A stretch of 64,000 nucleotides of DNA from Vulcanimicrobiota bacterium (GTDB taxonomy: Bacteria > Vulcanimicrobiota > Xenobia > Xenobiales > JADMJV01). Shown one piece after another: positions 9,931 to 26,885 of the stretch. Positions within the stretch are counted from its first letter, which is position 1, and every line of letters begins with the position of its first letter. The notes under the pieces were generated by a model. It saw nothing but the letters and a program-made list of their open reading frames with translations. It ran no database searches and was not told the DNA's origin. The position numbers and the translations under genes were made by a program. Where the stretch lies: NCBI GenBank assembly GCA_019637395.1, contig JAHBVR010000011.1, positions 124,001 through 188,000 on the forward strand. Direction: 5' to 3'.

Positions 9931-10572
9931 ATGAAGATCCAGACCGCGCCCCAGCCCCGCACCCTTAAATCCCTGCCCAAGAAGATGCCACCACAGGCTC
10001 CCAAACCCCCGAACGACCCCCATAAAAACATGCAGGACATCTGCTTTGGCGGCGCCCTGGGCACGGCCGCCTATGTGGGAGGGACCGCTTTCCCCTCCAC
10101 CTACCTTCACGAACTGGGCCACAAAATGGCCGTGCACGCCCTCTATTCAGGCGCCACCGCCGATATCACCGTCACTCCCTTCAAAGGTGGCGTAACCCGC
10201 TGGTCCGCCCAGGGACTCTCTCCCCTGGGCGAACATCTGGGCGCGGCCGGTAGCCGCTCGGTGGTGGCCATGGCCGGAACTGCCATGGACGCTCTCAGCA
10301 GCTGCGCTCTCTTCGCCGCCGGCTACAAGATGCGCCAGAAGCACCCGCTGGCGGCCAACGCCATGATGGGCTACGGCGTCATGAATATGGCCAATTCCAC
10401 TCTCTACGCCGCCAGCGGCATCGGCAAAGGCGCGGCCACCGCCAAGGCGGGCCACGACTTCGTCACCCTGCAGACCCAGCTAGGCGTTCCCTGCTGGGTG
10501 AGCACGGCCGTGGTGGCCAGCCTGATTCCGCTGACCTACCTGGCGATGCGCGCCTTAGAGAAGTCCGAGTAG
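9931..10572 (+). CDS. M50-like membrane metalloprotease (HELGH)
   Basis: A 213-residue protein with a Pro-rich N-terminal tail (about 1-32), then several hydrophobic segments. An HELGH sequence at 60-64 (STYLHELGHKMAVHALY) inside the first segment fits the HExxH zinc site of intramembrane M50/S2P-type proteases. A third zinc ligand is usually an Asp in a later membrane segment; D275 has no equivalent in this short protein, but D119 in GTAMDALSS is a candidate. There is no PDZ or CBS domain, so it is smaller than RseP or SpoIVFB. Substrate unknown. Its 3' end overlaps the convergent VOC gene by 18 bp. Confidence 0.65.
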   Translation: MKIQTAPQPRTLKSLPKKMPPQAPKPPNDPHKNMQDICFGGALGTAAYVGGTAFPSTYLHELGHKMAVHALYSGATADITVTPFKGGVTRWSAQGLSPLGEHLGAAGSRSVVAMAGTAMDALSSCALFAAGYKMRQKHPLAANAMMGYGVMNMANSTLYAASGIGKGAATAKAGHDFVTLQTQLGVPCWVSTAVVASLIPLTYLAMRALEKSE

Positions 10573-12588: not shown

Positions 12589-13544
12589 GCGGCCGGCTCC
12601 TTCCAGACCAGCACATCCGCCAGGTAATGCTGAAAATCACGCGCGGGCACGAAGCTCTGGTGCGTGCGGCTGCCCAACACGAAGAATACAAAGAAAAAGG
12701 AAGTGATGATCAACTGGGTCAGCAAAATCAGGGTTAAACCAAAAGCCGAGGTGGCCCAACCCGGGATGGCCAGGGTGGTAAAAAACTTGACTCCGACCAC
12801 CGTCATCATCAAGCTCAGGACCATCGCGATAAATACCTGCGAAACCAGCAACAGCCTCACTCCTACCCGGTCGGAATGAACCGAGACGGCGCTCAGCCCG
12901 TGCGTCACCAGCGCGGTCGTATTCATGCTGGAAGCCCCATCCAGGCGCTTGCCGCGCTGCGTGGGAATGTGAATATAGGGCACGCCGGTGCGCTGGATGC
13001 CGGCCGCGTAGTGGGTCCAAATCTCGGGCAGAGCGGCTATCTTTCTCAGCAGGGCCCCCGGAACCACGCTAAAGTTGCCCATACGAATGGAGTTTCCGGT
13101 CAGCATCCCGTAGAGGTTGCGATAGAAGAAATAGCCCAACCGGAAGAGCAAAGACTCGGAACGCCGGGTGCGCTGCGCGAAGACGAGCACGTCCGAGCCG
13201 TGCTCGCGGGCCGCCTGAAGCAGGCGGGCGGCATCTTCGGGACGGTCTTCCCCGTCGGCATCCATGACCAGCACCGTCCCTGGTTCTTCCCCGGCTAAAA
13301 AGGTCAACCCCATGGCGATGGCCCGTTGATGCCCCAAATTGCGCGTCAGGGTGAGCACGCGAATGCGCTGAAAGCGCGCCGAATCCACAGGCTCGGGCGG
13401 AGCGCCGAAAGGATTGTCGTTGACAATCAAGAGCTCCAACGGACCGAATTCCTCCGGGAGCGCCGCCCCCAGAGCGGGAAGCAAAGCGGCCAGCGACTTC
13501 CAGTCGTTATAGCAGGGCGTGACGACCGTGGTGGCGGCTTGCAA
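12585..13544 (-). CDS. GT2 glycosyltransferase (DPM1/GtrB-like), membrane anchored
   Basis: A 319-residue family 2 glycosyltransferase. The GT-A domain (1-225) has TVVTPCYNDWKSL, LLIVNDN, TLTRNLGHQRAIAMGL and the metal-binding DADGEDRPED at 95-104. Two hydrophobic segments (about 226-252 and 262-292) follow, as in GtrB and dolichyl-phosphate glycosyltransferases, which load a sugar onto a polyprenyl phosphate at the inner membrane. It starts 4 bp after the end of the extended SDR gene (stop at 13549) and overlaps the methyltransferase by 4 bp, forming an SDR-GT2-methyltransferase operon. Confidence 0.85.
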   Translation of the reverse strand: MQAATTVVTPCYNDWKSLAALLPALGAALPEEFGPLELLIVNDNPFGAPPEPVDSARFQRIRVLTLTRNLGHQRAIAMGLTFLAGEEPGTVLVMDADGEDRPEDAARLLQAAREHGSDVLVFAQRTRRSESLLFRLGYFFYRNLYGMLTGNSIRMGNFSVVPGALLRKIAALPEIWTHYAAGIQRTGVPYIHIPTQRGKRLDGASSMNTTALVTHGLSAVSVHSDRVGVRLLLVSQVFIAMVLSLMMTVVGVKFFTTLAIPGWATSAFGLTLILLTQLIITSFFFVFFVLGSRTHQSFVPARDFQHYLADVLVWKEPAA

Positions 13545-13548
13545 AAGT

Positions 13549-14595
13549 CTATCCCACCGGGACCGGGTGGCGCTTCACATATTCCACCAAACGCGGCAAC
13601 ACGCGGCGGATATCCGGGCAGGCGATTCCTGAGCCCTGCAGGGCGGCGCTGGTGTTATCGGCCAGATAGTGGGTGGGATGCACGAAATAATCCACCATGG
13701 CCGGAGTAAAGCCGGACCAGTTGGAGAGCGGCTTGAAGTGGCGCAAACTGGCCTTGGCCAGACTGAGCGGCACCTGCAGCGGAAAAACGCGGCGTTTGCA
13801 GGTCCGGCCCAGTTCGCTGACCATCTCCTCGACCGTCAACGGATTGGGATCGGAGAGATGATAAACGGTACCCGGCTTGCTGGCGTTCATGCTCAGGTAA
13901 GTGAGCGCGTCCAGCACGAAGTCCTGGGTGACCAGATTGATGCGCGCCACCGAAGGATCGCCGATACGCGGCAGAATCGAGAGAAAAGGAAAGCGCAGCA
14001 ACCAGCGGATGACCGGATAAGGCCCATCATATTTGAGAGTGGCGCCGCTACGGGAATCTCCCACCACCACCGAGGGTCTGTAGATGACCCAGGGCAACTG
14101 CGACTTCTGCACCTCCACCTCGGCCAGAAACTTGGTTTCCTCATAGTAGTTGTTGAAGCGCTGTCCTTTGTCCAGATCGCTCTCGCGATAAGGACCCGCA
14201 TAGCGGCCGCTTACGTAGCAGGTACTGACATAGTGCAATTTTTCCAGGCCCGACAGGCGCTCGGCGTAGCGCAAGATGTTCTGAGTGCCATCCACGTTGA
14301 TGCGCAGGCCCAGTGTGCGATCCAAGTTCAGGTCGTACAAGGCCGCGAAGTGAAAAATCTGGCTGCAGGCCAACTCTTGCTCCAGTCCCAGACCGGGGCG
14401 GGTGATGTCGCCACCGATCAGCTCGACGCGGGCGGCCAGAGCCGGATCAAAGCTGTCGAGGCGTTGTTGGGCGGTCTGCAGGAAGAGCGGCTCGACCAGC
14501 GCCAACACCTTGCTCTCAGGACGCTGCAGCAGAATGCGCGGCAACAAGTTGCTGGCCAAAAATCCAGGAAAACCAGTGACAAGAAGGCTACTCAT
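13549..14595 (-). CDS. Extended SDR, fatty-acyl reductase-like NAD(P) domain
   Basis: A 348-residue NAD(P)-dependent extended SDR, close in type to the male-sterility/fatty acyl-CoA reductase NAD-binding domain. The nucleotide motif is VTGFPGFLASN (6-16), GDITRP gives the acidic loop, and the active site is Y151-x-x-x-K155 in NNYYEETK, after YVSTCYVSGR. The ATG at 14595 has GAAGG about 8 nt upstream; the frame is open 26 codons further but without a ribosome site. It diverges from a longer paralogous reductase whose ATG lies only 52 bp away. Possible substrates are fatty acyl groups, polyketide-like acyl chains or sterol/sugar-type alcohols. Confidence 0.82.
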   Translation of the reverse strand: MSSLLVTGFPGFLASNLLPRILLQRPESKVLALVEPLFLQTAQQRLDSFDPALAARVELIGGDITRPGLGLEQELACSQIFHFAALYDLNLDRTLGLRINVDGTQNILRYAERLSGLEKLHYVSTCYVSGRYAGPYRESDLDKGQRFNNYYEETKFLAEVEVQKSQLPWVIYRPSVVVGDSRSGATLKYDGPYPVIRWLLRFPFLSILPRIGDPSVARINLVTQDFVLDALTYLSMNASKPGTVYHLSDPNPLTVEEMVSELGRTCKRRVFPLQVPLSLAKASLRHFKPLSNWSGFTPAMVDYFVHPTHYLADNTSAALQGSGIACPDIRRVLPRLVEYVKRHPVPVG

Positions 14596-14647
14596 GGGCG
14601 CACCTTCTCGCCCAGGTGAAGTACCCCTGGCAGGCGAACTCCCGCCT

Positions 14648-16468
14648 ATGAGCGCACCGGAAAACAGCCCCAATCTCTATATTGAAAAGGTCAGCCTGAC
14701 TACCGACGAGGTTCTGCCGGGAGAGGTGGCCCCGGAAGAATTGCTGGTCACCCATTACCGTGATTACCACGTGGTGGACACCTATGCCCGCTCGCTGATG
14801 AGCTGGCTGGTGCGCAGCACCGGCGATGAGGAGAAGGCGCGCGGTATCATGCGCAAGGTCCGGGAATTCGGACGTTCCACCTCCAACGTGCTGGCCAAGG
14901 CCCTGGGCAAGGACCCGGACGCTCTTTCCAAGACTCTTTTTGGCTTGAAGAAGCGCGATTACTACTTCCGTTTTAAAAAACACCTCTATTCCGCTGAGGA
15001 AATCGCCAGCCGCGTTCAGCAGCTAAAAAAGGAAGCGGTGGCCCAGGCCAGGGGCAAGAAGATGCGCGTCTTTCTGACCGGTGGCACGGGCTTCGTAGGC
15101 AAGGAGATTATGTACCAGGCGGCGGCCATCCCTGAAATCGAGCAGATGGTCGTGCTCATCCGCCCCAAAACCGTGCGCCACCGCCTCACCGGCGAGGTCA
15201 TCTCCCATCAAACGGTGGAAGAGCGCGGCGCCGAGCTGCTCAAGGAGCTGTGGTTGGAAGGCAATCCGAAGTACCGTTTTATCGACGGTGACATCGAGAA
15301 ACCGCAGATGGGCATCGCTGCCGAAACCCTCGACGAAATGTCGCGTTCCATTACCCACGTGATCCACTGCGCCGCCAGCGTGGCCTTTGATGACCCCTAC
15401 CCCGATTCATTCTCCGCCAACGTCACCGGTAGCTGCAACGCCCTGCAGTTTTCCTTGAATCTGCAACAGGCTGAAAGAAGCCCGTTCGTGGCCCACGTCT
15501 CGGTGGAAACTTCCTACATTCACGGCAAGCAGGTGCGCCAACAGGCCCGCGAAGACGAGGTCGTCTTTCCGCGCAACTTCTACAACAACTACTACGAGCT
15601 GACCAAGGCCATGGCGTCCCTGGAAACCGAGCGTTTTATGTTGGAGCACGGACTCAGAGTCGTTCAACTGTGCCCGGCTATCGTCATCGGCGACGCCCGC
15701 ACCGGCAACAACCGCGGCGATCAGAAAGTGGTCAACGCCCCGGTCAACAGCTGGGGCCGGGCCCGCAAGTTTCTCAAGGAAAGCCAGGGCGACTGGGTGC
15801 GCCGCTCTCAGGCCGAGGTGCTCTTCGCCATGGCCAAGATCTTCCCGGGCGACCCGTCGGCCGAACTGAATCTGATTCCGGTGGATTGGGTGGCGCGCGG
15901 CATCGTCAACGCCACCCTGCATCCCGAATGCATCGGCGAACGCATCCACCTGGCCACCGATAACCGCATCACCGCTGAGCGCATGATGAAAGTCATCCGC
16001 CGCGAGTTGCGCGTCAGCGTACGTCTCAGCGAACCCAACCTCAACCGCAAGCTGCACGCGCCGCTGATGACCACGGTGCTGACCGGGCTCAAACAGAAGA
16101 AGGTGGCCCACGCCCTGGGCAAACTGGGCAGCATCTTCAGCGGCTACAGCGAGTGGGGCCAGCCCGTGCACCAGGTGGGCAACGATGTCGATCTGCTGCA
16201 TTTACCCCTACCCCGCCCCAACACCGAGCACGCTTTCTGCATGCTGTGCCGCCACAACAAGCACGTGCAGGACTTCGGCACCATCAAAGACCCGCTCGAA
16301 CTGTCGCGACGCGAGAAACTCTGGCTGGAGTTTATCGAGGAAATCGAGGCGGAAACCGGCCAGCCCGCCGCCCTGATGCACTCCAAAGAGTTCTTCCGCC
16401 GTTTCACCGAAGCATTCGACCGCGACAGCTTCACCCGCCTCAAGCCAGCCGCCTTACCCGCCGGCTAG
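14648..16468 (+). CDS. Fatty acyl-CoA/ACP reductase-like protein with N-terminal helical domain
   Basis: A 606-residue protein. Residues 1-137 form a charged helical region. An SDR domain follows with LTGGTGFVGKEI (143-154) and the active-site pair Y316/K320 in NNYYELTKAMA, preceded by VSVETSYIHG. A C-terminal region (about 500-600) carries CMLCRHNKHVQD and acidic helices, resembling the FAR_C-type extension. This layout is that of bacterial FAR proteins that reduce fatty acyl-CoA/ACP to aldehyde or alcohol with NADPH. I chose the ATG at 14648; another ATG at 14594 has AAGG at good spacing and would give 18 more residues. It heads a plus-strand run of esterase, WS/DGAT and aldehyde dehydrogenase genes, which supports a wax-ester or neutral-lipid role. 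Confidence 0.8.
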   Translation: MSAPENSPNLYIEKVSLTTDEVLPGEVAPEELLVTHYRDYHVVDTYARSLMSWLVRSTGDEEKARGIMRKVREFGRSTSNVLAKALGKDPDALSKTLFGLKKRDYYFRFKKHLYSAEEIASRVQQLKKEAVAQARGKKMRVFLTGGTGFVGKEIMYQAAAIPEIEQMVVLIRPKTVRHRLTGEVISHQTVEERGAELLKELWLEGNPKYRFIDGDIEKPQMGIAAETLDEMSRSITHVIHCAASVAFDDPYPDSFSANVTGSCNALQFSLNLQQAERSPFVAHVSVETSYIHGKQVRQQAREDEVVFPRNFYNNYYELTKAMASLETERFMLEHGLRVVQLCPAIVIGDARTGNNRGDQKVVNAPVNSWGRARKFLKESQGDWVRRSQAEVLFAMAKIFPGDPSAELNLIPVDWVARGIVNATLHPECIGERIHLATDNRITAERMMKVIRRELRVSVRLSEPNLNRKLHAPLMTTVLTGLKQKKVAHALGKLGSIFSGYSEWGQPVHQVGNDVDLLHLPLPRPNTEHAFCMLCRHNKHVQDFGTIKDPLELSRREKLWLEFIEEIEAETGQPAALMHSKEFFRRFTEAFDRDSFTRLKPAALPAG

Positions 16469-16470
16469 GT

Positions 16471-16551
16471 GCCGCGGGACTTGCCAGGCAGCGGTAATTT
16501 TTACCGCCGGGCCGACAAGTCGAGGCCAGCCGCCGGGGAACTTGCCAGACA
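16471..16551. repeat. Degenerate direct repeat in the FAR-esterase intergenic region
   Basis: The 20-mers at 16471-16490 and 16532-16551 are alike and share ACTTGCCAG exactly (16479-16487, 16540-16548). They lie 61 bp apart in the 156-bp gap and could mark an old duplication or paired protein sites. Confidence 0.35.
16491..16507 (+). terminator. Perfect hairpin after the FAR gene
   Basis: GCGGTAA TTT TTACCGC gives a 7-bp stem with a 3-nt loop, 22 bp after the FAR stop. No T-run follows, so it may be an attenuator, an mRNA-end stabiliser or a weak terminator. The esterase gene starts 117 bp later. Confidence 0.4.
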
Positions 16552-16624
16552 AGTGGAGGGCCTGCCGCCATAGAATGAAATTCAAGACAAGGAACCCCTT
16601 GCCGCTTCCCGAAAAAGCCCACCA

Positions 16625-17563
16625 ATGCCCAGTACCCAAAGTTTTTTGGTGAGCCTGGCCATCCGTCGCCTGGTGAAAGATCGCAGCCGAGGGGACGTGG
16701 ACGTGCGTTTCGTGCGCTCCTGGGTGAATCGCCTGATGGTCCTGCCCATCCCTCACCTGTCGGTGACGTTCAAGCCGTTCCAAGAGGCCGGTCTCAAGGG
16801 CGAGTGGGTCCGCTCTCGAGCCGCGCACAACGAGCGCGTGGTGCTCTATTTGCATGGCGGCGGCTACTTTTTCTGCTCGCCCCGCACCCACCGGCCCGTC
16901 ACCACCTCGCTGGCCCGCCAGCTGGGCGGCCGGACCCTGGCCTTGCAGTATCGCCTGGCTCCCGAGCATCCTTATCCAGCCGCTCTGGACGACGCCGTGG
17001 CCGCCTACCGCTACCTGCTAGATCAGGGCATTTCGCCGCAACACATCGCCATCGCCGGCGATTCGGCAGGGGGCGGACTGACCCTGAGCAGTCTGATTCG
17101 CCTGCGCGACCTGCATCTTCCCATGCCCTCGGCGGCCGTGCTCTTCTCACCCTGGACCGATATGGCCGCCACCGGCGCCTCACTCGACCAGAACGACCAC
17201 ACTTGCGCCATGTTCTCGGCCGACGGCATTCGCAAGGCCCGCATGCTCTACGTGGGCCAGGATGACCCTTACAACCCCCTGATCTCCCCACTCTATGCCG
17301 ATCTCTCCGGCCTGCCCCCCATGCTGTTGCACGTCAGCGACAACGAAGTCTTGCTGGACGATTCCACCCGGCTGGCCGAACGCGCCCGCGCCGCCGGCGT
17401 CAACGTGGAATTCCGGGTCTGGAAGAACCAGCCTCACACCTGGCAACTTTTTCACAGATTGATCCCGGAGGGGCGGGAATCGCTGGATCAGGCCGCCTAC
17501 TTCCTCAATCAACATTTTGCGAAGTGTTGGGACGGCCTCGACCTGCCCTATAACCTGCCGTAG
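16625..17563 (+). CDS. Alpha/beta hydrolase, hormone-sensitive-lipase family esterase
   Basis: A 312-residue carboxylesterase of bacterial family IV. The oxyanion-hole motif HGGG is at 77-80 (VVLYLHGGGYFFCSP), the nucleophile elbow is GDSAGG with Ser147, and the acid and base are the Asp of HVSDNEVLLDD and the His of QPHTWQLF. There is no signal peptide, so it acts in the cytoplasm or at the inner membrane face. It is followed 2 bp after its stop by the WS/DGAT frame, so the two are almost certainly co-translated. In this setting it may hydrolyse stored acyl esters (wax ester or triacylglycerol) or other short to medium acyl esters. Confidence 0.88.
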   Translation: MPSTQSFLVSLAIRRLVKDRSRGDVDVRFVRSWVNRLMVLPIPHLSVTFKPFQEAGLKGEWVRSRAAHNERVVLYLHGGGYFFCSPRTHRPVTTSLARQLGGRTLALQYRLAPEHPYPAALDDAVAAYRYLLDQGISPQHIAIAGDSAGGGLTLSSLIRLRDLHLPMPSAAVLFSPWTDMAATGASLDQNDHTCAMFSADGIRKARMLYVGQDDPYNPLISPLYADLSGLPPMLLHVSDNEVLLDDSTRLAERARAAGVNVEFRVWKNQPHTWQLFHRLIPEGRESLDQAAYFLNQHFAKCWDGLDLPYNLP

Positions 17564-17565
17564 TC

Positions 17566-18879
17566 TTGGCTCGCGTTCGCCGCAGTTACACCATGAGCCG
17601 GGCCGACGCCGCCTGGCTGCACATGGAAGACCCGTCCAACCTGATGATGATCACGGCGCTCTTCACCTTCAAAGGGCGTCTCGATCCCGCCGTCATGCGC
17701 GCCATGCTGGAAGAAAAGCTCATGGCCTACGATCGCTTCCGCATGCGGGTAGGTTACCCCAAAATCGGCATCGGCCGGCCGCTTTGGAAGCAATATCGCC
17801 ACTTCAACCTGGACGATCATCTGGACGTGCGCACTCTGGATGCTCCCGGCGACGAACCCGCCCTCATGAAGCTGGTCAGCCAGTTGATGAGCACGCCTCT
17901 GGACCGCGAGCTGGCCTTGTGGAAATTCCACATTGTGCACGGCTATAACGGGGATGCCAGCGCCATGATTTGCCGCATCCATCACGCCATCGCCGATGGT
18001 ATCGCCCTGCTGCGCGTCCTCTTGAGCATGACCGAACAAGATCACTCGGTACTGGAGGCTCCTCATCGAACAGGGGCCCTGATGGTCAGCGAGGCCAGCA
18101 TCAAGGTCAAACCGAGCAAACTCATCGACGTGGCCCGCGGCTACACCACCGTGGCCCAAGACCTGGGCAAGTTGCTGATCGAAACCGAACCGCCCAGCCC
18201 CTTCCGCGGCCATCTGGGCACCAGTAAAACCGCCGCCTGCACTCAGTCGATTTGCCTGAATGCCATCAAAGAAGCGCGCCAAAGGGCCGGCTGCACCGTC
18301 AACGACGTGCTCATGGCCGCGGTGGCCGGGGGATTGCGGGCCCATCATGCCAAAATCGAAGGGGCACCCGCCTCCCACATCAATCTGCGCGCCATGATTC
18401 CCGTGGATCTGCGCAAGCCGGGCCAGGATCAACCGCTGGGCAACCGCTTCGGTCTGGTTTTCCTGGGTCTGCCGGTGGGCCTGGACAACCCGAAGGAGCG
18501 CCTGGCGGAAGTGCAAAAGCGGATGAACGCGCTCAAGCGCTCACCCCAAGCGGTGGTGGTTTTAGGATTGCTGGCCGCGGTCGGCTCCATTCCAGCCGAT
18601 ATGCAGCAGCACATCGTCGATCTCTTCGGTTCCAAAGGCACGGCCGTGGTCAGCAACGTGCCCGGCCCCCGCGAACCTCTGGCCATGGCCGGTCAAACCA
18701 TCGACAGCCTGATGTTCTGGGTTCCCCAATCGGGCCGTCTGGGCCTGGGCATCTCCGTGCTCAGCTACGGCGGCAAAGTCAAGTTCGGAGTGGCCGCCGA
18801 CGCCAACCTCAAGGTGGACGCGCAGGGATTGGCGCACGACATCGAAGCGGCCCTGCAAGAACTGATACAAGCTTTGTAA
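17566..18879 (+). CDS. WS/DGAT-type wax ester synthase/acyl-CoA:diacylglycerol acyltransferase
   Basis: A 437-residue acyltransferase. The catalytic HHxxxDG motif is HHAIADG at 139-145. Family blocks around it are present: an N-terminal RADAAWLHMEDPSNLMMI (about 12-29), PLDRELALWKFHIVHGY (111-127), the ND block VNDVLMAAVAGGLR and LVFLGLPVG/SNVPGPREPL in the C-terminal half. Such enzymes join fatty acyl-CoA to a fatty alcohol (wax ester) or diacylglycerol at the membrane, seeding lipid bodies. I list the TTG at 17566, 2 bp after the esterase stop; an ATG at 17593 is an equally good start by family comparison. Together with the reductase and dehydrogenase genes this is the core of a neutral-lipid cluster. 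Confidence 0.9.
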   Translation: MARVRRSYTMSRADAAWLHMEDPSNLMMITALFTFKGRLDPAVMRAMLEEKLMAYDRFRMRVGYPKIGIGRPLWKQYRHFNLDDHLDVRTLDAPGDEPALMKLVSQLMSTPLDRELALWKFHIVHGYNGDASAMICRIHHAIADGIALLRVLLSMTEQDHSVLEAPHRTGALMVSEASIKVKPSKLIDVARGYTTVAQDLGKLLIETEPPSPFRGHLGTSKTAACTQSICLNAIKEARQRAGCTVNDVLMAAVAGGLRAHHAKIEGAPASHINLRAMIPVDLRKPGQDQPLGNRFGLVFLGLPVGLDNPKERLAEVQKRMNALKRSPQAVVVLGLLAAVGSIPADMQQHIVDLFGSKGTAVVSNVPGPREPLAMAGQTIDSLMFWVPQSGRLGLGISVLSYGGKVKFGVAADANLKVDAQGLAHDIEAALQELIQAL

Positions 18880-18903
18880 GAGGCTTATTAGGAGGACTCC
18901 CCC

Positions 18904-20475
18904 ATGGAGGCGATCACCGCCCCGGCCCTGGACGGCTGGCTGGAAGACTTGACCCGCGCTTTGCCCGCCTGGCAGGCCACGCCCACGCCGCGTCGCCTCA
19001 GCTATCTGGCCCAGCTGCGCAAGGATTGCTACCGTTTGGCTTCGCGTTGGGCTGAAGTGTGCTGCCAGATCAAAGGGGTCGATCCCAAATCGCAGTTGGC
19101 CGGCGAAGAATGGGCCCTGGGTCCGTTGATCACGCTGCGCAACCTGCGCCTGCTGGAAAAACAAATCCAGACTCCGCCCCGCCAGGGCAGCCGGCTGGTG
19201 CGCGCCTTGCCCGGCGATACCTGGGACATGGTGCAATGGCCTATTCTGCGCGGGGAGACCTGGTCCGACCCCAACCAGAGCAAACCCGAGTCGGTCAAAG
19301 GCAAGGTCGGATTGGTGTTGGGAGCCGGCAATGTCTCCTCCATCGGCGCCACCGATGTGCTCTATAAAATGTTCATGGAAGACCAGGTCGTCCTGCTCAA
19401 AATGAACCCGGTCCACGAGCCGCTGGGTGAAGTGCTGGAAGAAGTCTTCGACTGTTTGATCAAAGACGGTTTCCTGCGCATCGTGCGCGGCGGCCCCAGC
19501 GAAGGAGCGCTGGCCTGCCGGCATCCCCAGGTGGAAGCCCTGCACATCACCGGATCGCACCACACCTACGACGCCATCCGGCGCAACCTCCCCAGCCCCA
19601 AGCCGATCACCGCGGAACTCGGCTGCGTCTCGCCGGTGATCGTGGCCCCGGCTCGCTGGTCCAACCGCCAGCTCGAATACCAGGCCCGCCACATCGCCGG
19701 CATGCTGACCACCAACGCCGGCTTCAACTGCAACGCCGCCCAGGTCCTCATCACCAGCAGCCAGTGGCCGCAGCGCGACGCTTTCCTCAACGCCCTGCGG
19801 CGCGCGCTGGCCAAGGTGCCGGCCCGGCCCTCCTACTACCCGGGATCCAGAGAGCGCCACGCCAGGCTGGTCCGGCAAAATCCCGCCGCCGAACAACTGG
19901 GGCCGCCGGCAGCCGAGGCCACCTGCTGGACACTGGTGCCCGGAGTGGATTGGGAAAAAGACCCGCGCCCGCTGCAAGAAGAAGCATTCTGCGGCGTGCT
20001 CTTTGAAGTGGCTCTGGACGTGCCCTACAACGAGTTTCTCCTGAAGGCGGCCGACTTCGCCAACGATAAAATCTGGGGCAACCTGTCCTGCTCCATGATC
20101 TTGCCGCCCGAAGCCCAGCGCAGCCAGCCCTGGCGGCGCGCTCTGGAGAACCTGCGCTACGGAGCGGTGGGCGTCAATATTTGGCCCGGCCTCGTGTTTG
20201 CTCTGGTCAACCTGCCCTGGGGCGCCTACCCCGGCAATACTCCCGACGATATCCAGTCGGGCAACGGCTTCGTGCACAACACGGCCAACGTGGAGGCAGT
20301 GCAAAAAACCGTGCTTTACGCTCCCTTCTACACTCCCATTCGCCTGCCGTGGCACGCCGGCTTCACCCGCTTCGGCAGCCTGGCCCGCATTCTCACCGAC
20401 TTCGAATACCAACCCTCCCTGAAGAGCGCCCTGAAAGCCCACTGGGAGGCCCTGCGCGGCGGACTGGGCGTATAA
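18904..20475 (+). CDS. Aldehyde dehydrogenase family protein
   Basis: A 523-residue NAD(P)-dependent dehydrogenase of the ALDH superfamily. Visible residues: K166 in VVLLKMNPV, the dinucleotide loop LGAGNVSSIG (139-148), HITGSHHTYDAI, the general base E238 in TAELGCVSP and the nucleophile C276 in NAGFNCNAAQV. The N-terminal 100 residues are longer and more divergent than in common ALDHs. AGGAGG precedes the ATG at good spacing. It follows WS/DGAT by 24 bp. A likely job is oxidation of fatty aldehydes, or acyl reduction in the reverse direction, linked to the FAR and wax-ester genes. Confidence 0.88.
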   Translation: MEAITAPALDGWLEDLTRALPAWQATPTPRRLSYLAQLRKDCYRLASRWAEVCCQIKGVDPKSQLAGEEWALGPLITLRNLRLLEKQIQTPPRQGSRLVRALPGDTWDMVQWPILRGETWSDPNQSKPESVKGKVGLVLGAGNVSSIGATDVLYKMFMEDQVVLLKMNPVHEPLGEVLEEVFDCLIKDGFLRIVRGGPSEGALACRHPQVEALHITGSHHTYDAIRRNLPSPKPITAELGCVSPVIVAPARWSNRQLEYQARHIAGMLTTNAGFNCNAAQVLITSSQWPQRDAFLNALRRALAKVPARPSYYPGSRERHARLVRQNPAAEQLGPPAAEATCWTLVPGVDWEKDPRPLQEEAFCGVLFEVALDVPYNEFLLKAADFANDKIWGNLSCSMILPPEAQRSQPWRRALENLRYGAVGVNIWPGLVFALVNLPWGAYPGNTPDDIQSGNGFVHNTANVEAVQKTVLYAPFYTPIRLPWHAGFTRFGSLARILTDFEYQPSLKSALKAHWEALRGGLGV

Positions 20476-20510
20476 GGCAGGCCGCCCTCGCCCTGCTGCT
20501 GGTTTCGCTC

Positions 20511-22760
20511 GTGGTGATGGGGGGCGAGCTGGTGGCTTATCCTTTCTTTTTCCGCGACGATCAGCAGGCTCATTTTCTACCCGGCTTCAGCGAAATCGCC
20601 CAGGCCTGGCGGGCAGGAGAGTTGCCCTGGGTCAGTCGCTATTCCTGGTGCGCCGGCGGCCTGTTGGGTGAATACCAATACGGCATCTTCAACCCCGTCG
20701 TACAACTGGCGGTGGTGGCCAGCTCGTTCATCCCCGATATGGCCCTGCGAGATGCTTGCCTGGTGGCCTTCTTTGCCTGGATCATGGCCTGGGGCAGCCT
20801 GCGCCTGGCGCGTGACCACGGGCTGGACGAGTATTTTGGATTGGCCCTGGCGGCCGTCGTCTGCTTCAATCGTTTCGCCCTGGACCTGGGCTGGCGTTCC
20901 TGGCTACCTATGGCCATCGGGGCCACCTGGATCCCGTGGTTCTGGCATGCCTGCGCCCGCCCTCGGCTGTCGGTCTGGCGATTGGTGCTCTCCCTCTATC
21001 TGGTGCTCACCGCCGGCTGGCCTTTTGCGGTGGCGGCCACGGGAACATTAGGGATCTTTTACTTTCTCGTAGCCCTCTACCGGCGCCAATGGCGCCGCGC
21101 CGCCCTGCTGGTGTTGGGGGCCGGGTGCGCCCTGGCCTTGAGTTCGCCGGCGTTGGGTGCTCTGGTCGAGCACTCGCGCACGGCCATTCGGGCCCAATCC
21201 TCGAACTGGCAATACCGTCTGGAAATCTGGGATGGGCTACCCTTCGTGCTACCTGGTCTGATCGCTCACTCCCGGGGCATGGAAATGGTCAACCTGTATA
21301 CCGATTTGGGCTGGATTCCCTGTCTGGGCATCCTGGGCGCGCTACTCCAGCGCAAGGAGCGGCAACCGCTGTGGTGGCTGGCGCTGGTCTGGTTTGGCCT
21401 GGGACTCTCCCCCTCGCTGGCCGGCATGCGTTTTTCCTTCCGCTGGCTTAACTACCTCAATCCGCTCATGGGGTTGCTCGGGCTGATCTGGCTCCAGCGC
21501 CAGGCCAGCCAGCCGGCTCATCGATTTGGACCGGCCACCTGGACGGCCCTGTTACTCGGTCAAATACTGGGTCCCCTGGGGGACAGCCTGCGCGGTTTTC
21601 CGCACCGTTGGGAAGCCGGCCCCATTCTGCTGCTGGTGCTCTTTTGCCTGGCCTGGAACGGCCGGCCCGGGCAACGCTCGCCACTGGTCCTGGGGGGAAC
21701 GCTGATCGGATTATGGCTGGCCGTGCCCCTCACCGCCTTGAGCGGGCATCAATATCCCTCGGCGCCGATTCCACCCGGCACACGGGTAAAAAACGACCGT
21801 GTCTGGCTCTCTCTCTACAGCTGGGAAGAGTTGCTGGACAATCGGGCCGAACTGGTGGTCTCGGCCCGCTACGGCAACGCCGCCATGCCGGAACGGGTAG
21901 AATTTGTCAACGGTTACTCGCCGCTTTTTGTGGCCCCGCTGATTCGCGCCTGGCCCTTTTCCAACGTGGGCTCGCTGGACACCAGCGAATGGGCGCGCGT
22001 CAACGTGGCCCTGGGCACGGCGCCGGCCGGCTTGATGGACAAACTCGGCATCTCCGGCTTGCTGCTCAGCCCGCAATGGAGCGGTCTGGGCCGGGTGCTG
22101 GCGCAAAATGGCTGGACGCCGGCCGGCGCCGAAGGACTCATGCAGGTGTGGACGCGTGGGCCCGGCCGGCGTCCCTGCTTCCAATCCCTGACCCAAGCGG
22201 CTTTTCGAGAGAAATGGGCAGCCGTGGTGGAACAGGCGCTGGAGCCCAATGGCATTGCAGTCGTGCACGGCAGCCCCGACGGGCTCCGTTCCTTCGCTCC
22301 GCTGCAATGCGGCCGGGAAATGCTGGAGCGCAACGGCGCCCAGGTGCAAATCTCGGCCAATCCGGGCAACCAGCCGGCTCTGGTGGCAGTGCACCGCTCC
22401 TACCTGGAAGGCTACCGCGCCAGCTTAAATGGACAACGCCTCAAGCTCTACAACCTGAACTTGCAGCATATGGCCGTCGAACTCCCCCCGGGCAGTCCGG
22501 CCGGCGCCCTGCAGGTCGTCTATCGGCCGCGCATCTTCGACTGGGCGCCCGCGCTGATGGTCCTGGGCTTGCTGGGAACCTTAGCGGCTCAGAAAGTCCG
22601 CCCAGCTGAGGGCGAAGAGCAAGCCGATCCAGAGCAGCGCGGCCCCGGCCACCAGGCGGATCAGGGGCGAACTTTGACGCAGGTGCATGTAGAAGACGGC
22701 CACCAGCAGCGCTTTGAGGCCGGCGATGACCAGAGCCAGCACGGTTCCCCAAATTCCTAG
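20511..22760 (+). CDS. YfhO-like large polytopic membrane protein, ends abnormal
   Basis: A protein of about 750 residues with an N-terminal membrane part (about ten helices, 1-420) followed by a soluble C-terminal half and a last helix near 22545-22590. FFFRDDQQAHFLPGFSEIAQ then ELPWVSRYSWCAGGLLGEYQYG resembles the first loop of YfhO/GT-C-type membrane proteins that modify teichoic acids or envelope glycans. Both ends are odd. The first membrane helix is already encoded from 20478, with no ATG/GTG/TTG in frame before the GTG at 20511, so a rarer start (CTG/ATA) just after the aldehyde dehydrogenase stop is possible. At the 3' end no stop occurs until 22760, 180 bp into the convergent coxD gene, adding a hydrophilic tail. 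Confidence 0.65.
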   Translation: MVMGGELVAYPFFFRDDQQAHFLPGFSEIAQAWRAGELPWVSRYSWCAGGLLGEYQYGIFNPVVQLAVVASSFIPDMALRDACLVAFFAWIMAWGSLRLARDHGLDEYFGLALAAVVCFNRFALDLGWRSWLPMAIGATWIPWFWHACARPRLSVWRLVLSLYLVLTAGWPFAVAATGTLGIFYFLVALYRRQWRRAALLVLGAGCALALSSPALGALVEHSRTAIRAQSSNWQYRLEIWDGLPFVLPGLIAHSRGMEMVNLYTDLGWIPCLGILGALLQRKERQPLWWLALVWFGLGLSPSLAGMRFSFRWLNYLNPLMGLLGLIWLQRQASQPAHRFGPATWTALLLGQILGPLGDSLRGFPHRWEAGPILLLVLFCLAWNGRPGQRSPLVLGGTLIGLWLAVPLTALSGHQYPSAPIPPGTRVKNDRVWLSLYSWEELLDNRAELVVSARYGNAAMPERVEFVNGYSPLFVAPLIRAWPFSNVGSLDTSEWARVNVALGTAPAGLMDKLGISGLLLSPQWSGLGRVLAQNGWTPAGAEGLMQVWTRGPGRRPCFQSLTQAAFREKWAAVVEQALEPNGIAVVHGSPDGLRSFAPLQCGREMLERNGAQVQISANPGNQPALVAVHRSYLEGYRASLNGQRLKLYNLNLQHMAVELPPGSPAGALQVVYRPRIFDWAPALMVLGLLGTLAAQKVRPAEGEEQADPEQRGPGHQADQGRTLTQVHVEDGHQQRFEAGDDQSQHGSPNS

Positions 22761-22832
22761 GGAAAAATGGTTGATAGCCACCGTCAGCACCAGCAAAGCC
22801 ACCAGAACCAACCAGACAATCCAATAGGTCAT
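22581..22832 (-). CDS. coxD: Cytochrome c oxidase subunit IV (small, prokaryotic type)
   Basis: An 83-residue protein with three hydrophobic segments (about 3-20, 24-45, 55-78) and the motif KALLVAVFYMHLRQSSPLIR, typical of the COX4_pro/caa3 subunit IV family (Prok cytochrome c oxidase subunit IV). It is a structural subunit of the haem-copper oxidase at the cytoplasmic membrane. Its ATG at 22832 overlaps the coxC stop by 4 bp (ATGA). It is the last gene of the respiratory operon and converges with the YfhO-like gene, whose frame runs across most of it. Confidence 0.85.
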   Translation of the reverse strand: MTYWIVWLVLVALLVLTVAINHFSLGIWGTVLALVIAGLKALLVAVFYMHLRQSSPLIRLVAGAALLWIGLLFALSWADFLSR

Positions 22833-23386
22833 GGTCGTGTTCCAATCAGATAGAGCAGCGGATACAGGAAAAACCAGAGCAGATCCACCAGATGCCAGTA
22901 GAGGCCGAGTATCATGATTTCGTCCGCCGAGCGGTAGCCAGCCCGCCAGGCAAAAAAGAGCACGGCCAGCACTCCCAAGGTCAGGTGGAACGCGTGCAGA
23001 CCGGTGAGCGTGAAGTAAAAGAAGAAAAAGAGCCGCTCTCCCACGACGCCCTGGGAATGCTCCAGGCTCCATTCGTAGCCCTTGATGCCGAGAAAGACCA
23101 GGCCCAGTAAGGCGGTAAGCCATAGCCGGCGGGCCGCCCCCCCCCGGTCGCCGCGCTCCCCCCGATCCACCGCGAAAGCCATGACGGTGGAGGAGGTCAG
23201 CAACACGGCCGTATTGACCGCCCCCAAGAGCCATTCCAGCTGCAATGAGGCCCGGGCAAACTCGCTTTGATGATAAAAGCGGCCATAGCTATAGGCCAGG
23301 AAGAGACCGCCAAAGAGCATCAGCTCGGAGCCCAGGAAAATCCACATTCCCAGGCTGTAAGACTGGTGTTGCTGGTTGCGGTCCAT
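22829..23386 (-). CDS. coxC: Cytochrome c oxidase subunit III
   Basis: A 185-residue subunit III with five membrane helices, as in the short bacterial form. LGMWIFLGSELMLFGGLF is the usual first-helix signature, and GLHAFHLTLGVLAV and YWHLVDLLWFFLYPLLYL close the protein with the conserved WHxVDxxW pattern. The ATG at 23386 shares one base with the coxA stop (TGATG); an upstream frame extension exists but begins inside coxA. The partner subunits are encoded directly on both sides. Confidence 0.93.
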   Translation of the reverse strand: MDRNQQHQSYSLGMWIFLGSELMLFGGLFLAYSYGRFYHQSEFARASLQLEWLLGAVNTAVLLTSSTVMAFAVDRGERGDRGGAARRLWLTALLGLVFLGIKGYEWSLEHSQGVVGERLFFFFYFTLTGLHAFHLTLGVLAVLFFAWRAGYRSADEIMILGLYWHLVDLLWFFLYPLLYLIGTRP

Positions 23387-24996
23387 CACAAGGCTCCTCC
23401 GAGACGCACACTGGTCAGCAGCGGCGCCATACCCCAATCCAGATCCTCAAGGCGCGGAGGTTCCACAAAGTTGTGAGCAGGCGGCGGCGAACTGGCGGCC
23501 CATTCCAGGCCGTGATGGGCGTCCCAAGGATTCTCTTCGGAACGAGTTCCGCGGAAGAGGGACCAGGTCAGATAAGTGAGCGGCAGCAGATAGCCGACGG
23601 CCAGAAAGGTGGCACCGGCTGAAGAAAGCAGGTTATAGAGCTGAAATTCAGGAGGATAGCTGTGATAGCGGCGGGGCATTCCTAGATAACCCAGCAGGAA
23701 CTGGGGCATGAAGGTCAGGTTGAAGCCCAGAAAGATCAGCAGCGCCGACATCTTGCCCAGACCCTCGTGGTAAAGCCGGCCGGTCATCTTGGGCCACCAG
23801 AAGTGCAGACCCCCCAGATAAGCCATCAACATGCCCCCCACCATGATGAAGTGGAAGTGAGCCACCACGAAATAGGTATCGTGCAGGTGCACGTCCACGG
23901 CCAGCGTGGCCAGAAAGAGCCCGGTCAGACCGCCGATGGTGAAGAGCCCGATAAATCCCAGCGCATACAGCATAGGAGTCTGTAGCCGGATGGAGGCCTT
24001 GTAGAGCGAGGCCGTCCAGTTAAAAACCTTGATGCCCGAAGGCACGGCCACCAGAAAGCTGAGGAACGAGAAAATCAGGCCGGCATAGAGCGACTGGCCG
24101 GAGACGAACATGTGGTGGCCCCAAACGATGAAACCCAGCACGGCGATAGCCAGGCTGGCCACGGCGATGTAGGCGTAGCCGAAAACCGGGCGGCCGGCGA
24201 AACAGGGCAGAATCTCGCTGACCACCCCCATGCCGGGCAAAATCATAATGTAGACGGCCGGGTGCGAATAGAACCAGAAGAGATGCTGGAAGAGCAGTGG
24301 ATCTCCCCCCAGGGCCGGGTCAAAGATGCCGACTCCAAAGAGTCGTTCAGCCGCAATCAGAATCAGCGTGCAGGCCAGCACCGGGGTGGCCAGCACCATG
24401 ATCAGACTGGTGGCATACAGACTCCAGCAAAAGAGCGGCATGCGAAACCAGGTCATGCCGGGAGCGCGCATTTTGTGGATGGTTACCATAAAATTGAGCC
24501 CGGTGAAGATCGAAGAGAAGCCGGTCACGAAAATGCCGGCGGCCATGAGAATGACGTGGCTGTTGGTGTAGGTGGTGCTGTAGGGTGTATAAAAAGTCCA
24601 GCCGGTATCCACTCCGCCGGCCAGCAGCGACCAGAGCACCAGCAGCCCACCGGCCGAGAAGACATACCAGCTCAGCAAATTCAAGCGCGGAAAGGCCACG
24701 TCGCGAGCGCCGATCATGAGCGGCAGCAGAAAGTTGCCCAGCGTGTTGGGAATGGCCGGAATCAGGAAGAGCCAGACCATCACCGTGCCGTGCAGAGTGA
24801 AGAGGCGATTGTAGATATCGGCCTCGACCAGATCGCCGGCCGGGGTAGCCAGCTCCAGGCGCATCAAGGTGGCGGCCAGACCACCGATGACGAAAAAGAC
24901 GGAAATGCTGATCAAATAAAGCCAGGCAATGCGCTTGTGGTCCTCGGTCAGCAACCAGGCTTTCCAGGAAACCGGCCCGCTCAGGTAACTGGTCAC
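23386..24996 (-). CDS. coxA: Cytochrome c oxidase subunit I (A2-type haem-copper oxidase)
   Basis: A 536-residue subunit I with about twelve helices, carrying haem a, haem a3 and CuB. Visible ligands and channels: TLHGTVMVW (haem a His), the [15 protein letters not shown] helix (CuB His with the cross-linked Tyr), [10 protein letters not shown] (two CuB His) and [17 protein letters not shown] (haem ligands). The helix reads YSHPAVY and not GHPEVY, so the D-channel Glu is replaced by the Tyr-Ser pair of type A2 oxidases such as caa3 of Rhodothermus and Thermus. It overlaps coxB by 4 bp. It reduces O2 to water with proton pumping. Confidence 0.96.
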
Positions 24997-25877
24997 GGCC
25001 GGCTCCGCAGATAAGCAATTAAGTCCAGAATCTGCTCTTCGTTAAGGCGACCGGCGTAACTCGGCATGATCGACTGAAAGCCCGGCACCACCTCGGCGTT
25101 GGGGTCGACGATTGAGCGGCGCAGATCGTCTTCGTCGGCTTTGGCCAGATTCTGCAGGCGGGGAGCCGCTACCGACCCCTCATGACATCCCTGGCAGCCG
25201 TGTTGCTGAAAGAGCAGCTTACCGCGCTGCACCGGGTCCACCTGGCCACCGTCCTGCCAGCGTTGAAAGTCCTCGGGAGTCATCACTTCCACCCAGCCGC
25301 CCATGGCCGCGTGGGAGGTGCCGCAGAATTCGGCGCAAAAAAGGCGAAACTGGCCCACCCGAGTGGGTTGAAACCACAGGTAGGTATAGCGACCGGGCAA
25401 GACGTCGTGCTTGACGCGGAAATCCGGAATGAACAGGCTGTGAATCACATCCTGCGAAATCATCCGTAAAGTTACGCGCTTACCCAGGGGCAGGTGGAGG
25501 CGGTTGATCTCCTTGGTCCCATTGGAGTAGTGCGCGATCCACATCCACTGCTTGCCCACCACGTCCACCGTTACATCGGTGCTCTCGGGCAACTGATAGA
25601 GCCGGTAATATTCGCGGGCCCCCACCCAGAAGAGGCCCAAAGAGAGCAAGGTGGGCAAAACGATCCAGCCGATCTCCAACCGGTTATTGCTCAGGGGCGG
25701 CGCGGCCCGGTCGGCCGGACTCCCCTGCCGGTAAAGGACCAGGAAAAAGACCATACAGAACAACACCGCCAGAGCAAAAAAGGAGCAGATCCCCAGCACC
25801 ACCAGGGTGACGAAATCCACACCGCCGGCCTCGGAAGCAGCCAGTTGGGGCCAGATCGGGAAAGGCCCGAGCTTCAA
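24993..25877 (-). CDS. coxB: Cytochrome c oxidase subunit II with fused cytochrome c (caa3)
   Basis: A 294-residue subunit II. After a short periplasmic head come two helices (about 23-48, 66-86). The CuA cupredoxin domain follows, with [10 protein letters not shown] and the ligand set [14 protein letters not shown]-terminal cytochrome c domain carries the haem motif CQGCH and a distal Met in [10 protein letters not shown]. The fusion defines a caa3-type oxidase. I chose the TTG at 25877, which overlaps the SCO stop as TTGA, matching the overlap style of the whole operon; the frame is open to 25931 but that would lie inside the SCO gene. Confidence 0.94.
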
Positions 25878-26602
25878 GACTTGCGCTCCTGCTGGAGCCA
25901 GTACAGGATGAGCGAGAGCAAACTCAGGCAAGTGGCCAGCCCCAGCAGTTGCAGCGTGCGCCAGATCTGCAGGCTGTAGCGCCCGCTGGCCGGATCATAC
26001 TGGAAGCACAGGTAAAGGACCGGGTCGATTTTGCCTTCGACCTGGTTCGCGGCGGCTCGCTGCAGGGCTCGTTGCAGCGCCGGACCCGAGAAGCTGATGC
26101 CAAAAAGATACGAGGAAACCCGGCCGTCTGCCGTCAAGGCCACGATCCCGGCGGGATGGGCGAACTGATCACTGCCCCGGTCGTAGCGAAACTGGAATCC
26201 GACCGCCTGACAGAGCTGGCCGATATTCTCGGGGGTTCCGGTCACAAAGCGCCAATCCGCTCCCCGGCTCAAGGCCGCCTGGCGCTTTTGCCGGGCCAGG
26301 CCGGGTCGCTCGCGCGCATCGATACTCAGACAAATCACTCGATAATCGCGGAAAGAAACCGTCTTCAGGCTGTCCAACAAACCGCTCTGCACCTGGCCGC
26401 ACAGCATGGGACAGCCGAAGTAGCCCGGCACCAGCAGTGTGGCCTTGCCCGCGCTCAAGTCAGCCATGGTCAGCGCCCGGCCGCCTTCATCGATCAGGCT
26501 CACCCCGGGGAGTGGAGCTCCGGGATGTTGTTCGAAACGGGGGACCGGTTCGGCCGCCAGCGGGGTCACCCAGAGTAGGAATAGCAGTAGCACCAGACGC
26601 AC
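25874..26602 (-). CDS. SCO1/SenC copper chaperone for CuA assembly
   Basis: A 242-residue protein: a signal sequence (RLVLLLFLLWVTPLAAEP), a thioredoxin-like domain with the copper-binding CxxxC in GYFGCPMLCGQV, a later conserved His in FAHPAGIV, and a C-terminal membrane helix (LLGLATCLSLLSLILYWL). The GTG at 26602 has a perfect AAGGAGGT site 5 nt upstream and places the signal peptide at the start. It likely loads copper or reduces the CuA cysteines of coxB, which is translated next (TTGA overlap). Confidence 0.9.
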   Translation of the reverse strand: MRLVLLLFLLWVTPLAAEPVPRFEQHPGAPLPGVSLIDEGGRALTMADLSAGKATLLVPGYFGCPMLCGQVQSGLLDSLKTVSFRDYRVICLSIDARERPGLARQKRQAALSRGADWRFVTGTPENIGQLCQAVGFQFRYDRGSDQFAHPAGIVALTADGRVSSYLFGISFSGPALQRALQRAAANQVEGKIDPVLYLCFQYDPASGRYSLQIWRTLQLLGLATCLSLLSLILYWLQQERKS

Positions 26603-26885
26603 GGGAACCTCCTTGAGAGACCACCTGCATGGCCTCCTCGATCGGGATTTGCACAAGTCCTTGAGAATGGTCCACCCATTGGTAGCGATGCAGTTCCGGC
26701 GGGTCACGCTCCACCACCGGCTCTACTCGCAGAGGGGTGGCCGCCGTCAAAGGGCCGCCCGGCTGGTGCCAGGTCCGATGCAGCCAGCCCATGGCCAGCG
26801 CGGAAAAGGCCACCAGCAGCCACACTCCGGCCCCAAACCAGAGCAACCGCCCGGGAACCGCATCACTCTGCTCGTAGTCGGCCAA
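26487..26885 (-). CDS. Small single-span protein of the ACIII-oxidase operon
   Basis: A 132-residue protein starting at a TTG with GGAGG just upstream. It has one membrane helix (LLWFGAGVWLLVAFSALAMGWL, about 12-34), a short periplasmic part, and the motif YQWVDHSQGLVQIPIEEAMQVV. Small proteins with a WVDxxxGxVxIPIExAM pattern are often encoded beside alternative complex III genes. After VVSQ the frame continues 116 bp into the SCO gene with low-complexity sequence, so the natural end may be shorter. It overlaps actF by 23 bp. Function unknown; probably assembly of the complex or a peripheral subunit. Confidence 0.62.
   Translation of the reverse strand: MADYEQSDAVPGRLLWFGAGVWLLVAFSALAMGWLHRTWHQPGGPLTAATPLRVEPVVERDPPELHRYQWVDHSQGLVQIPIEEAMQVVSQGGSRASGATAIPTLGDPAGGRTGPPFRTTSRSSTPRGEPDR

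Follow-up and report, generated by a model that had tools for sequence, protein, structure and literature searches.

A conserved gene cluster in Vulcanimicrobiota encoding a putative wax ester synthesis module with a candidate fatty acyl reductase

Gene content and conservation of the cluster

The window analyzed here is the whole stretch of 64,000 nucleotides at G000:C3:124001-188000, which is part of a 7.66-Mb genome (G000) of the lineage Vulcanimicrobiota (Candidatus Eremiobacterota). It harbors a gene cluster that probably represents a wax ester synthesis module. Four consecutive genes on the plus strand (14648-20475) are separated by gaps of only 156, 2, and 24 bases and encode a fatty acyl reductase (FAR)-like short-chain dehydrogenase/reductase (SDR) of 606 amino acids (aa; 14648..16468), an esterase of the hormone-sensitive lipase (HSL) type, i.e. 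of family IV (16625..17563), a wax ester synthase/diacylglycerol acyltransferase (WS/DGAT) of 437 aa (17566..18879), and an aldehyde dehydrogenase (ALDH) of 523 aa (18904..20475). A second SDR, which we named SDR2, is located on the minus strand (13549..14595) and diverges from the FAR-like SDR, with the two start codons lying 52 bases apart. A sequence-only reading of the window had predicted exactly this arrangement, and all five genes were confirmed by family profile matches: PF07993 for the FAR-like SDR (113 bits) and SDR2 (124 bits), PF07859 for the esterase (198 bits), TIGR02946 for WS/DGAT (357 bits, cut-off 310) together with both Pfam halves PF03007 and PF06974, and PF00171 for the ALDH. 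The latter match reaches 44.5 bits at a cut-off of 23, and the ALDH is therefore regarded as divergent. The ATG of the FAR-like SDR is kept in three relatives (G001-G003), whereas WS/DGAT starts with TTG in the window and with ATG at the equivalent place in G004.

The sequence-only reading had also proposed to compare the gene order around WS/DGAT in related genomes. The order SDR2-FAR-HSL-WS/DGAT-ALDH is intact in four of the five genomes of the genus (G000, G001, G003, and G004), and in the fifth (G002) SDR2-FAR and HSL-WS/DGAT-ALDH are found on two contigs, split by the contig ends. The outer flanks, comprising a glycosyltransferase, a methyltransferase, a glyoxalase, and a membrane protein, are not retained in G004, and since genes further out are not kept there, the five genes can be taken as the unit. 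This five-gene arrangement is not due to chance. Outside the genus we inspected 76 WS/DGAT loci, many of them short, and counted only matches of >45 bits. Neither the esterase nor the ALDH nor this type of FAR was found at any of them, and an SDR2-like match within 10 kb of WS/DGAT was present in five, where it corresponds to the N-terminal part of AcrB-like genes.

The FAR-like reductase

The 606-aa protein consists of an N-terminal part (approximately residues 1-140) without a family match, a core resembling the thioester reductases among the extended SDRs, and a C-terminal part of approximately 150 aa, again without a family match. PF07993 matches the core in all 17 members scanned, and no credible Pfam match was obtained for residues of about 1-140 and 455-606. 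Both parts are nevertheless conserved, with 13 invariant residues within 1-140 and 32 within 440-606 among 20 aligned sequences. T288, Y316, and K320 are invariant in the same alignment and can be read, following the SDR pattern, as the predicted catalytic set. By profile the nearest solved structures, which cover the core only, are MxaA, the reductase domains of non-ribosomal peptide synthetases (NRPS), polyketide synthases (PKS) and carboxylic acid reductases, and the fatty acyl-CoA reductase 7eoz. Matches of residues 473-523 to designed armadillo repeats were taken as composition artefacts. An AlphaFold2 model built from an alignment of three rows (window, L020, and L021) reached a mean pLDDT of 35.4 and a pTM of 0.26 and was rejected as a query for fold searching. 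A scan of FAR and SDR2 against a defence library gave no match.

The protein could be assigned to none of the three fatty acyl reductases described for bacterial wax esters. FarA is defined by PF07993 followed by PF03015 (FAR_C), whereas PF03015 was listed for none of the 17 members at an E-value of 1, and these have the conserved N-terminus of about 140 aa and a different C-terminus instead. Against the AcrB-type model NF005539 the protein scores 65 bits, compared to a cut-off of 549, and AcrB comprises two SDR domains in one protein of about 660 aa. FcrA, a homolog of HMG-CoA reductase (HMGR; PF00368), had no match in the genome, while the control search was positive in five of 14 known genomes. 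Thus, by the features tested the protein is neither FarA nor AcrB, and FcrA is ruled out by its absence from the genome. The latter contains 11 PF07993 matches, the top two of which are the SDRs of the cluster. The third-best (L013:1198-3516, on G000:C11) is by its translation an NRPS-like protein with adenylation and thioester-reductase parts and represents a second possible acid reductase of this organism.

Natural fusion and co-occurrence of FAR and WS/DGAT

The window protein belongs to the WS/DGAT family, and its acyltransferase function is predicted accordingly from the sequence. Among nine aligned sequences, HH, D, and G of the HHxxxDG motif (HHAIADG in the window) as well as ND are invariant. 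WS/DGAT is single-copy in the genome, and additional separate WS/DGAT genes away from the FAR module were observed in G005 (L104:9599-10942) and G004 (L103:2931-4214). G005 belongs to a sister genus of the same family, and here FAR and WS/DGAT form one uninterrupted frame of 1044 aa without any stop. The FAR part of the fusion is 57% identical and the WS/DGAT part 47% identical to the window proteins, the cut-offs of PF07993, PF03007, and PF06974 are exceeded by a wide margin, and both the YELTK motif with the SDR Tyr-Lys pair and HHAIADG are retained. As the esterase gene sits between FAR and WS/DGAT in the genus, the fusion is a separate arrangement. G006 gives no information on this point, since its FAR (57% identity over 245 aa) runs off the contig edge and its WS/DGAT is on another contig. 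No natural bacterial fusion of FAR and WS/DGAT was found in the open-licence literature among the matches listed, and the available part of a review names natural FAR-acyltransferase fusions in ciliates only, besides engineered ones (PMC9113324).

The two families also go together across genomes, although all counts and Fisher p values given here are uncorrected for kinship. Within the phylum, the FAR profile A2 matches in seven of 149 genomes at an E-value of 1e-30. The WS/DGAT profile A1 matches in 16 at 1e-10, seven of these at 1e-170 or better and the remaining nine weakly, at about 1e-15 to 1e-21. All seven FAR carriers have a strong WS/DGAT, while the other 142 genomes contribute the nine weak matches (p 4e-8). 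The strong matches are confined to one order, so that the designation of the lineage as unexpected for such a cluster was fair. Among 396 genomes of Acidobacteriota, FAR is present in 14 (1e-40), WS/DGAT in 58, and both in eight, i.e. WS/DGAT is found in 8/14 FAR carriers versus 50/382 others (p 2e-4). It accompanies all six of the FARs scoring >900 bits, compared to two of the eight with lower scores. In G173 the two genes are about 10.5 kb apart. The FAR search outside the genus covered the genomes of 50 of the 76 WS/DGAT loci, and among these genomes from other phyla a strong FAR match occurred in two, both of them Acidobacteriota.

The neighborhoods in Acidobacteriota were read from the longest non-overlapping open frames only, by which FAR itself was lost in L164 and L171, and for these the places of WS/DGAT came from a separate search. 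In three Acidobacteriota genomes for which WS/DGAT was not found, genes for polyhydroxyalkanoate (PHA) storage lie near the FAR ortholog (L174:3884-4480, L175:2225-2833, and L173:1984-2304). Two of them encode PHB_acc_N regulators (72 and 51 bits), the third a phasin-like protein (22.8 bits, below the cut-off). These neighbors hint at a link of FAR to storage granules.

SDR2, esterase, and aldehyde dehydrogenase

No function had been assigned to SDR2 in the sequence-only reading, and it can now be tied to the aldehyde reductase domain of AcrB. It matches only the N-terminal half of the AcrB/Maqu_2507-type model NF005539 (PRK07201), at 221.8 bits, below the cut-off of 549, and over model positions 3-353 of 657. 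When aligned to the AcrB-like products of five loci, one of which (L094) is interrupted by unread bases, SDR2 has Ser-Thr at the Ser-Ser position and keeps the Tyr and the Lys. For the Marinobacter enzyme, the accessible part of the source describes that the N-terminal half alone reduces aldehyde and not acyl-CoA, whereas the C-terminal half reduces acyl-CoA (PMC7573125). As the homologous half of AcrB is a fatty aldehyde reductase, SDR2 is likely to catalyze the step from aldehyde to alcohol.

The esterase carries the HGGG and GxSAGG (GDSAGG) motifs in addition to its PF07859 match and is thus a family IV enzyme. Its assignment to the GESAG subfamily was rejected, as NF058651 gave 280.8 bits and the cut-off is 430. 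Family IV esterases often favor short chains, and it is therefore a guess that this one may open wax esters. In the ALDH, Cys276, Glu238, Asn143, and Lys166 are invariant among 14 aligned sequences, and the retained Glu is typical of acid-forming members. Relatives of the ALDH with 33-34% identity adjoin long-chain acyl-CoA ligases in plasmid records of Klebsiella and Polaromonas, joined in the latter by a fatty acid desaturase and a glucose-methanol-choline (GMC) oxidoreductase. None of these three neighbors was found next to the relatives in Tsukamurella and Streptomyces, and the ALDH family is also present in G010-G013, genomes without a WS/DGAT match. A fatty aldehyde as the substrate of the ALDH would be a fair guess.

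Proposed function and alternative explanations

In the most probable reading, the FAR-like SDR would act on acyl-CoA or acyl-ACP as the activated form of a fatty acid and reduce it to the aldehyde, perhaps even to the alcohol, while SDR2 would convert fatty aldehyde into fatty alcohol and WS/DGAT would join the alcohol with a second acyl-CoA to a wax ester. The esterase could then reopen the stored esters and the ALDH could oxidize fatty aldehyde, yielding fatty acid to be re-activated. The families, the intact catalytic residues, the retention of the cluster within the genus, the fusion in the sister genus, and the co-occurrence are read directly from the sequences; the substrates, the direction, the chain length, and the entire breakdown half are what we infer. 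The sequence-only reading had proposed a self-contained unit for synthesis and breakdown. Its synthesis half gained support from the fusion, the co-occurrence, and the likeness of SDR2 to the AcrB domain. The breakdown half is plausible as a proposal, the esterase being a general one and the ALDH family also occurring without WS/DGAT, and a full synthesis-and-breakdown unit is a possible reading of the cluster. For the 606-aa SDR we go one step further: the chances appear about even that it represents, beside FarA, AcrB, and FcrA, a fourth class of fatty acyl reductases serving bacterial wax esters, which is present in Vulcanimicrobiota and Acidobacteriota. In one lineage it is fused with WS/DGAT, and this protein would convert acyl-CoA and NADPH directly to wax ester, with the alcohol passed between the sites.

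Several observations weigh against the proposed wax ester module. Besides the lack of a kinship correction in the co-occurrence statistics, WS/DGAT was not found at an E-value of 1e-10 in six of the 14 Acidobacteriota FAR carriers, and the reductase may therefore have another role. FAR is not adjacent to WS/DGAT in Acidobacteriota, where seven of the eight genomes with both genes have them on different contigs. The fusion is known from a single metagenome-assembled genome (G005), with no SDR2, HSL, or ALDH gene adjacent to it. MxaA and other thioester reductase domains rank ahead of 7eoz for the FAR core, and hence homology does not tell which substrate is used. The esterase looks like a general enzyme of family IV, near EstD11 and Est8, with solved esterases matching at up to 280 bits.

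The Acidobacteriota carriers without WS/DGAT would fit a FAR that supplies alcohol or aldehyde for other lipids, e.g. ether lipids, next to a WS/DGAT acting mainly as a triacylglycerol synthase, with adjacency reflecting the shared use of acyl-CoA. The natural fusions in ciliates do serve ether lipid synthesis as far as stated in the accessible part of PMC9113324, but in G005 FAR is directly joined to WS/DGAT, and the two co-occur in all seven carriers of the phylum, which makes this explanation unlikely. The thioester reductase domains nearest to the FAR core could also point to SDRs that are thioester reductases for a polyketide or peptide product, which the acyltransferase then decorates. 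However, no PKS or NRPS gene is present within the cluster, WS/DGAT scores above its family cut-off, and it is WS/DGAT that takes part in both fusion and co-occurrence, so that such a function is very improbable. Finally, the unit could mainly serve uptake, with the esterase opening imported esters, the SDRs and the ALDH oxidizing alcohol to acid, and WS/DGAT storing the surplus. This would agree with the acid-forming type of Glu in the ALDH and with the plasmid run in which desaturase, GMC oxidoreductase, and acyl-CoA ligase genes accompany a relative of it. On the other hand, the supply of alcohol to the synthase accounts for the fusion, and SDR2 aligns with a domain that, according to the part of the source available, reduces aldehyde with NADPH (PMC7573125), which leaves the uptake function only a slim chance.

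Intergenic repeat and further features of the window

Between the two divergent start codons lies an imperfect inverted repeat, CCAGGTG-AAGTA-CCCCTGG (14612..14630, without strand), which occurs in the perfect form CCAGGGG-N5-CCCCTGG in G001, G002, and G003 and is altered in G004. As the FAR proteins of three of the four genus relatives compared are 90-95% identical to that of the window, this conservation is expected without selection, and the repeat is a possible, though weak, candidate for an operator. A regulon is not claimed, since the genome contains three exact occurrences versus one for the control pattern. A search of 13400-20800 revealed no promoter resembling the sigma-70 type. Elsewhere, proteins of the lineage share a start of M(K/Q)IQ or VKIQ that leads into a stretch rich in Pro and Lys (9931-10572, the only one in the window, and L099:16911-17408 and L099:18411-19067), possibly a lineage-specific N-terminal signal. 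Downstream of the cluster, genes for cytochrome oxidase subunits and an SCO-like protein are located on the minus strand (22829-26707), of which subunit III was checked against families.

Comparison with known systems

In the accessible part of Grossi et al. (2025; PMC11948995), 1% of the WS/DGAT-bearing bacteria in the set have FarA, 31% AcrB, and 26% FcrA, which, if these shares do not overlap, leaves about 40% without a known alcohol source; for the route via Acr1, the aldehyde reductase is listed there as unknown. The cluster provides a candidate for each of these two gaps, namely the reductase of 606 aa for the first and SDR2 as a stand-alone protein for the second. If the 606-aa protein is indeed a fourth class, it would account for some of the bacteria that have WS/DGAT and for which none of the known reductases is found. 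The natural fusion makes this candidate directly testable via one gene. Moreover, the cluster would assign neutral lipid storage to one order of a phylum about which little is known.

Like FarA (Maqu_2220), the window enzyme is a reductase of the PF07993 type, and it differs from FarA by its termini as described above. AcrB (Maqu_2507) shares the role of an alcohol supplier for wax esters and has an N-terminal domain homologous to SDR2. However, AcrB is one two-domain protein, whereas here the aldehyde reductase domain is stand-alone and the acyl reductase is the unlike 606-aa SDR instead of an Acr1-like C-terminal half. FcrA, as far as the source is available, is likewise an alternative alcohol supplier co-occurring with WS/DGAT (PMC11948995), but its fold family is unrelated. 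The engineered plant FAR-WS fusions named in the accessible part of PMC9113324 also combine a reductase and a wax synthase on one chain; these are laboratory-made with other enzyme types, whereas the fusion of G005 is natural. AcrB-like genes near WS/DGAT are described for some Pseudomonadota, among them Burkholderiales, in the part of PMC10351704 available, and the clustering itself is therefore not new. That a compact cluster is notable, as had been claimed, thus holds only partly in view of these published cases and the five of 76 loci mentioned above. What is new by sequence comparison is the architecture of the reductase, the natural occurrence of this enzyme as a fusion with WS/DGAT, and a putative aldehyde reductase of the AcrB-like type that stands alone.

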